Of a DNA stretch of 64,000 nt, positions 62,902 to 64,000 are shown in pieces. This DNA comes from Bacteroidales bacterium (GTDB lineage: Bacteria; Bacteroidota; Bacteroidia; Bacteroidales; UBA932). Position 1 is the stretch's first letter; each line of letters begins with the position of its first letter. The notes under the pieces were generated by a model. That model saw only the letters and a program-made list of their open reading frames with translations. It ran no database searches and was not told the DNA's origin. The stretch spans positions 1 through 64,000 of the forward strand of contig JAGAKR010000015.1 in NCBI GenBank assembly GCA_017625535.1, written 5' to 3'. Both the position numbers and the translations under genes were made by a program.

Positions 62902-63258
62902 TTATTTTGCCTTTTTTGTGTAAGAACTGTTTTTCTCGTTCAGGATGTCTATGCACTGCATAAGTGCGGCAATCTCATCCTTAAGGGATTGGATATTGTT
63001 TTCATATGTTTTCCGCTCAATGTCGGGAAGTGACATTCCGGCTTCAAAATCATCGTCCAATACGAGTTCTTCTGGGGTAACATTCAAGGCTTGTGCAATC
63101 TCCCAGATACGCCTGCTTACAAGCAATGTGGGCCCCCTCTCAATTTTCCTGTATGAATTGAGCGACATCCCCAACTTGTTGGCCATCTCTTCCTGGGAGA
63201 TACCTTTCCTGCGTCTAGTCTCGTATATCTTGTCTTTTATTGAGCCATTGTCTTTCAT
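62902..63258 (-). CDS. XRE-family regulator with coiled-coil tail
   Basis: 118 residues. N-terminal HTH_3 domain (about 8-65: IYETRRRKGISQEEMANKLGMSLNSYRKIERG, in two helices around the turn). The C-terminal ~45 residues (YENNIQSLKDEIAALMQCIDILNEKN) form a likely coiled coil for dimerisation. It is transcribed divergently from the EF-G paralogue, and a perfect inverted repeat (63302-63324) lies between them, so it is a good candidate regulator of itself and of that gene. A TATTTTTG element (63264-63271, minus strand) ends 5 nt before the start. Confidence 0.9.
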   Translation of the reverse strand: MKDNGSIKDKIYETRRRKGISQEEMANKLGMSLNSYRKIERGPTLLVSRRIWEIAQALNVTPEELVLDDDFEAGMSLPDIERKTYENNIQSLKDEIAALMQCIDILNEKNSSYTKKAK

Positions 63259-63301: not shown

Positions 63302-63324
63302 TAAGGTGTTAAAATAACACCTTA
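63302..63324. promoter_or_regulatory. Perfect inverted repeat, candidate operator
   Basis: TAAGGTGTTA-aaa-TAACACCTTA: two perfect 10-bp arms separated by 3 bp. It lies 43 bp upstream of the XRE start and 22 bp upstream of the EF-G promoter. The symmetry and spacing suit a dimeric HTH repressor, and the short loop with no T-run in either direction argues against a terminator. Confidence 0.65.
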
Positions 63325-63346: not shown

Positions 63347-63378
63347 GTTGCATCTTAGAAAAATAATCTTTAAATTTG
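63347..63378 (+). promoter_or_regulatory. Promoter of the EF-G paralogue gene
   Basis: GTTG (63347-63350), a 20-nt spacer and TAAATTTG (63371-63378) match the Bacteroidetes -33/-7 pattern; the leader would be about 58 nt. Confidence 0.55.
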
Positions 63379-63442: not shown

Positions 63443-64000
63443 ATGAAAACATACAATACCAGTAATGTGCGTAATGTGGTGCTGTTGGGTAGTTCCAAAT
63501 CGGGAAAAACCACATTTGCCGAGACAATGATGTTCGAGGGTAAGGTCATTGAGAGAAGAGGTACAATTGAGGGTAAGAACACTATGAGTGACAATACCGA
63601 GATTGAGCAGATTTACCAGAGGTCAATATATTCAACACTTTTGTACACTGAGTTCCTTGATACAAAATTCAATATCATTGATACCCCGGGTTCAGACGAC
63701 TTCGTAGGTGGTGTGTATTCTGCATTCTCAGTTGCAGAGAACGGTATCCTTCTTGTAAATGCAACTCAGGGTGTTGAGGTTGGTACAGAGATTTTTGCAC
63801 GCCACGCTGTGAAACACCAGAAACCTCTTATCATTGCCGTTAACCAGCTCGACAGCGAGAAACAGGACTGGCAGGCTACAATAGATTCATTGAAGGCTAC
63901 TTTCGGAAATAAGGTTGTACTTGTACAGTATCCTGTAAACCCAGGTCCTGATTTTGACACTTTCATTGACGTTTTGAAGATGAAGATGTACAAGTTCAAG
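63443..64000 (+). CDS. EF-G paralogue (EF-G2 type) with altered GTPase site, C-terminus beyond window
   Basis: The first 186 codons of a translational GTPase, open to the window edge. The P-loop is LLGSSKSGKTTFAE (canonical GHVDAGKTT), the switch I RGIT is replaced (IYQRSIYSTL), the G3 motif reads DTPGSDDFVGG instead of DTPGHVDF so the catalytic His is absent, and G4 reads NQLD instead of NKxD. The same substitutions occur, as I recall, in Bacteroides EF-G2, which is reported to support translocation without GTP hydrolysis and to matter in the gut. Codon bias is strong, suggesting abundant product. Domains II-V cannot be checked. Confidence 0.88.
   Translation, partial: MKTYNTSNVRNVVLLGSSKSGKTTFAETMMFEGKVIERRGTIEGKNTMSDNTEIEQIYQRSIYSTLLYTEFLDTKFNIIDTPGSDDFVGGVYSAFSVAENGILLVNATQGVEVGTEIFARHAVKHQKPLIIAVNQLDSEKQDWQATIDSLKATFGNKVVLVQYPVNPGPDFDTFIDVLKMKMYKFK

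Follow-up and report, generated by a model that had tools for sequence, protein, structure and literature searches.

Does an elongation factor G (EF-G) paralogue that has lost the catalytic histidine of its G domain still work by hydrolysing GTP, and what controls the gene that encodes it? The question is raised by the end of a 64,000-nt stretch of DNA (the window, i.e., the whole stretch analysed) from a Bacteroidales bacterium of the UBA932 lineage (GCA_017625535.1, contig JAGAKR010000015.1; genome G000 here), where a single open frame leaves the window at its end:

63443..64000, + strand: first 186 of the 717 codons of fusA2, encoding EF-G2 (open frame, NF058620 match, tree, and dN/dS)

The full gene (G000:C9:63443-65596, or L005:3443-5596) is intact, encoding 717 aa without an internal stop, and Pfam models of the EF-G domains matched the full protein, the domain IV match being split into two pieces. 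The protein carries GSSKSGKTT at residues 16-24, DTPGSDDF at 80-87, and NQLD at 134-137, and its switch I has QRSI at the place of canonical EF-G's RGIT. All three motifs, as well as the absence of RGIT, had been read correctly in a first-pass annotation made from the DNA. Because GKTT, DxPG, and a Ser replacing the Mg-binding Thr are kept, GTP binding by EF-G2 is expected. The canonical signatures against which these motifs had been set (GHVDAGKTT, DTPGHVDF, NKxD, and RGIT) can be compared with a canonical EF-G from the same genome:

L006:5550-7667 (G000:C11): canonical fusA, 705 aa, directly after rpsL and rpsG (TIGR00484, 1021.4 bits)

This protein has RGIT, DTPGHVDF, and NKMD as listed, while its P-loop reads AHIDAGKTT, not exactly GHVDAGKTT. 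The gene lies in an rpsL-rpsG-fusA operon and is the second, canonical fusA that the annotation had proposed to look for elsewhere in the genome. Two further observations concern translation genes. First, the EF-Tu gene appeared as two partial matches (G000:C1:1-846 and G000:C17:93776-94348), one of them at a contig end, which is probably an assembly break. Second, in seven genomes of other Bacteroidales families, picked because both genes are close on one contig (L205-L211, from G072, G065, G091, G089, G066, G096, and G080), fusA2 is divergent to and adjoins the rpsL-rpsG-fusA operon, at about 0.1-3.7 kb; this may be an older arrangement, since left by the window's lineage.

The family to which the window protein belongs was evident from profile scores and phylogeny. 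Against NCBIfam NF058620 (EFG2_Bacteroid), the full protein scored 1186 bits over residues 1-716 (cut-off 1000), and against the canonical EF-G model TIGR00484 it scored 509.4 bits, below the cut-off of 659.4, with the PGH, NKxD, and RGIT motifs changed. In a maximum-likelihood tree of 62 rows, which held no Tet proteins and no Mycobacterium smegmatis EF-G2 and had a long branch flagged at L077, a branch with 100/100 support split off the eight canonical EF-Gs, and PDB chain 7uvp and the window protein shared a 40-row clade (100/100). The tree, a check that the annotation had proposed for the full gene, rules out that the gene encodes a canonical EF-G or arose by recent duplication of fusA, and together with the NF058620 score it bears out the call of a Bacteroides-type EF-G2. 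The nearest solved chain was PDB 7uvp/8dmf (718 aa, an end-to-end match), which we take to be Bacteroides thetaiotaomicron EF-G2. This chain shares GSSxSGKTT, PGSDDF, NQLD, and the domain IV extension with the window protein and differs in switch I (GYSV there, QRSI here). More generally, B. thetaiotaomicron EF-G2 (fusA2, BT_2167) belongs to the same family and clade, and its genome likewise has a canonical fusA. In Margus et al. 2011 (PMC3150367), an absent RGITI marks the EFG II group, of which YGYSV is the Bacteroidetes form. The window protein resembles that Bacteroidetes sub-subgroup in lacking RGITI, in keeping Ser in G2, and in being a paralogue outside the str operon, whereas its G2 has QRSI instead of the YGYSV consensus, and its residue 25, after the P-loop, is Phe where Leu is given for 99% and stands in our 37-row consensus.

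The loss of the PGH His recurs throughout the aligned sequences. In an alignment of 140 EF-G2-type rows (137 distinct), His was found at the PGH position in 0/134 Bacteroidota rows with a residue there and, on recount, in 0/140 rows overall. The 88 rows labelled by hand as Bacteroidales (the window protein and 7uvp among them) have Ser (56), Ala (25), Leu (4), or Met (3) at this position, the 48 rows labelled by hand as others have Tyr (17), Leu (15), Thr (8), Phe (5), Pro (1), or a gap (2), and a Candidatus Electronema row from another phylum has Asp. Domain IV is lengthened at residues 508-543, where the stretch is 36-37 aa in all 88 Bacteroidales-labelled rows (36 in the window protein), about 28 residues longer than the canonical form. 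Of the other rows, 47/48 have 27-28 aa there, the exception being a 39%-identical protein with 7 aa; canonical EF-G and Electronema both have 8 aa. Those other rows include L079, named for the Bacteroidales genus Lentimicrobium, with a gap at the His position and a 27-aa domain IV stretch. Since they are found across the aligned rows, the loss of the His and the longer domain IV are traits of the family and not of this gene, and a changed G domain is to be expected in a protein family described already. That no Bacteroidota EF-G2 row in this alignment has the PGH His, and that almost all have a lengthened domain IV, points to an old change in the GTPase and not to a trait of gut Bacteroides.

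The family is also common among the genomes searched. EF-G2 exceeded the NF058620 cut-off in 95 of 100 Bacteroidales genomes (the window's own included), the exceptions being G033, G045, G063, G067, and G076. The G067 gene is split over two contigs, and the other four may be true losses, since G063 and G076 are 98-99% complete. In a sample of 198 genomes from across the phylum, the window's own among them, nine of the matches listed were over the cut-off and many more genomes had full-length matches below it, and one of 14 named control genomes had EF-G2 over the cut-off.

Fixed in the EF-G2 family and encoded by a gene with a dN/dS of 0.021-0.059 against each of eight close relatives compared, the motif changes are more than chance, and the conservation across the whole family rules out a chance motif match. 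fusA2 is under purifying selection. Its codon usage was scored by CAI against nine ribosomal-protein genes (own CAI 0.626-0.823), yielding 0.738 for fusA2, 0.790 for fusA, 0.505 for lepA, and 0.567 for typA. As background, the 41 ORFs of the window that reach 200 aa or more, which are mechanical calls and not annotated genes, had a mean of 0.535 (SD 0.117), and three of these ORFs exceeded fusA2. The strong codon bias noted in the annotation was thus confirmed; such usage, near that of ribosomal-protein genes, is consistent with strong expression, if only some of the time. Together, the dN/dS values and the codon usage rule out a decaying paralogue.

Because the loss of the His is family-wide and domain IV is longer, the window protein is best read as the orthologue of B. 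thetaiotaomicron EF-G2, which reportedly translocates with no hydrolysis of GTP and would serve slow synthesis when energy is short; we place the probability of this reading at about 0.87. EF-G2 would bind the ribosome, probably with GTP, and would drive tRNA-mRNA translocation by this binding and its domain IV, with the GTP unhydrolysed, and protein synthesis would thereby continue slowly when energy is short. For the window protein, the absence of GTPase, the translocation activity, and the starvation role are predicted from the orthologue, and the case for a lost GTPase lies in the orthology, not in the His by itself. In Han et al. (EMBO J, 2023), translocation by Bacteroides EF-G2 is reported to be slow and to proceed with no GTPase activity, and a region of 26 residues found only in EF-G2 is reportedly why that activity is missing. 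Judging by its size, our domain IV stretch would be this published region. Of the papers that cite this work, one says that EF-G2 of Bacteroides "enables GTP-independent translation" (PMC10294740), and another describes an EF-G paralogue by which translocation is catalyzed "without GTP hydrolysis" (PMC12775393).

The annotation's argument from the missing His to poor or absent GTP hydrolysis goes too far, the His alone being a weak basis, because Thermus thermophilus EF-G-2, likewise without the PGH His, hydrolyses GTP. PMC3832671 describes that factor as a ribosome-dependent GTPase, and this, the retained GKTT, DxPG, and Ser at the Mg-binding position, and the NKxD lysine present in 20/48 non-Bacteroidales-labelled rows would fit an EF-G2 that keeps a useful ribosome-dependent GTPase, its altered motifs tuning rather than abolishing hydrolysis. 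We regard this as improbable, given that 87/88 Bacteroidales-labelled rows have lost the lysine, that all 88 have the long domain IV stretch, and that the tested orthologue is reported without GTPase in the citing papers. Less probable still is that EF-G2 here serves in ribosome recycling, or in some other task on the ribosome, instead of translocation, like mitochondrial or Borrelia EF-G2. EF-G paralogues of other groups do have split functions (PMC3832671, in part), but the window protein lies in the Bacteroidales EF-G2 clade with 7uvp, and the Bacteroides member is reported, in the citing papers, to translocate. A further paralogue in the same source, M. smegmatis EF-G2, is similar in being a divergent EF-G paralogue with no ribosome-dependent GTPase seen, and differs in belonging to another phylum and in performing neither EF-G role under the conditions tested (PMC3832671, in part). 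Finally, the depositors' label on the closest solved chain would make this a tetracycline ribosomal protection protein, a reading that is extremely improbable and ruled out as far as sequence can show, because the window protein scored 111.7 bits against the TetQ model (cut-off 1425) and 112.6 bits against the TetM model (cut-off 1420) while exceeding the cut-off of the EF-G2 model, as the annotation's reading requires. That label, tetracycline resistance protein TetQ, stands on 7uvp_A/8dmf although the sequence marks the chain as an EF-G2; among the literature matches listed, the codes 7UVP and 8DMF occurred with other subjects only.

With EF-G2 as a GTP-independent translocase favored, how might its gene be controlled? 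In PMC6989115, fusA2 of B. thetaiotaomicron is the gene most strongly induced via BT4338 (Cur) on carbon limitation, with Cur acting through a 22-bp site, and BT4338 is placed in the Crp family (PMC3878776, in part). In the window's genome (88.6% complete), PF00027 (cNMP-binding) had no match and PF13545 (HTH_Crp_2) none over its cut-off of 27 bits, with one match at 21 bits. Across the genus, PF00027 was undetected in 33/39 genomes (own included; many incomplete), as it was in 9/21 other genomes of the family and 2/40 genomes of other families. No Cur-like site was found upstream of the window's fusA2, where the best core match has three mismatches. The Cur-like core ATGTT-N4-AACAT (at most one mismatch) was found upstream of fusA2 in 7/9 Bacteroidaceae-like loci and 0/42 window-side loci, with about 0.04 in shuffles, in a post hoc comparison (such sites had already been seen in the DNA) between groups hand-picked from signature and similarity, with 5/9 Bacteroidaceae-like loci beside 7uvp in the tree, 50/101 upstream regions in neither group, and L087, which has no upstream DNA, omitted. 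At two mismatches, the window-side loci had 10 matches, which is at chance (shuffle fraction 0.276). The Cur control of Bacteroides fusA2 cannot be transferred to the window's genome.

The DNA upstream of the window's fusA2 has other features:

62902..63258, - strand: divergent HTH (XRE-type) protein of 118 aa, candidate fusA2 regulator (PF01381 HTH_3, 47.8 bits, cut-off 23)

63302..63324, no strand: perfect 23-bp palindrome TAAGGTGTTA-AAA-TAACACCTTA, candidate operator, between fusA2 and the divergent HTH gene

63371..63378, + strand: TAAATTTG, which fits the Bacteroidota -7 box TAnnTTTG, candidate fusA2 promoter

TAnnTTTG, the consensus of the Bacteroidota -7 box, occurs within 150 nt upstream of fusA2 in 77/101 loci (0.11 in shuffles). 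The divergent regulator mentioned in the annotation is present as a gene and would be a regulator by position and domain. B. thetaiotaomicron has a Cur site for EF-G2, whereas here we detected no Cur-like site or Crp-family gene and found the divergent HTH gene and palindrome. The palindrome is the sole match within two mismatches in the window (0.04 expected) and the sole perfect match in the 2.18-Mb assembly, where no second perfect site pointed to a regulon. At two mismatches, a reversed-pattern control had more matches in the assembly (seven per strand) than the real pattern (three per strand), so nothing can be built on the imperfect sites. The palindrome finds no support as an element conserved in the family, most relatives being without it; its half-site GGTGTTA alone recurs, in the window and in the intergenic regions of 5/8 relatives examined (L008, L009, L010, L011, and L017), which have an HTH homologue 56-81% identical. 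The half-site is absent from the intergenic regions of L012, L013, and L014, in which the HTH homologue is more distant.

A related HTH gene lies on the opposite strand, no more than about 2.1 kb upstream of fusA2, in 14/57 regions from the family (9/37 in the genus, 5/20 elsewhere), a count that left out G033 and G045 (no EF-G2 over the cut-off) and used an HTH profile built from matches at loci overlapping the genomes later searched with it. With this count, and 25/108 loci, the HTH gene was rejected as a general fusA2 partner; it also finds no support as a one-for-one substitute for Crp, since G010, G046, G047, G049, and G053 have both and many genomes have neither. The HTH-fusA2 arrangement is real, though patchy among relatives, with the regulatory role a candidate one. 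From the sequence only, we infer that fusA2 may be controlled by the adjacent HTH protein via the palindrome, and not by Cur.

EF-G2 is an already known family, and what looks new is the control of fusA2. This control has apparently been rewired in an uncultured Bacteroidales lineage, the named relatives of which, among those compared here, are mostly gut bacteria of deer, cattle, goats, and yaks. A literature search with limited terms found no description of the HTH gene, the palindrome, or the absent Cur control; among the matches listed, none mentioned EF-G2, and fusA2 appeared in the context of vesicle proteins. Given that fusA2 shares the codon preferences of ribosomal-protein genes, EF-G2 may be abundant and in routine use in this lineage. 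That it has been freed from Cur and is run in part of the lineage by a divergent HTH switch with a single operator, as a routine abundant factor, is a speculative proposal that we consider unlikely as a whole; if true, much of the everyday translocation in this lineage would be done without GTP hydrolysis.

A different palindrome, ATATAAACGTTTATAT, lies about 20 nt before the fusA2 start in ten related rumen-type loci (L043, L044, L047, L048, L049, L050, L054, L060, L071, and L083), with variants in L046 and L051, and is possibly another operator or leader element.
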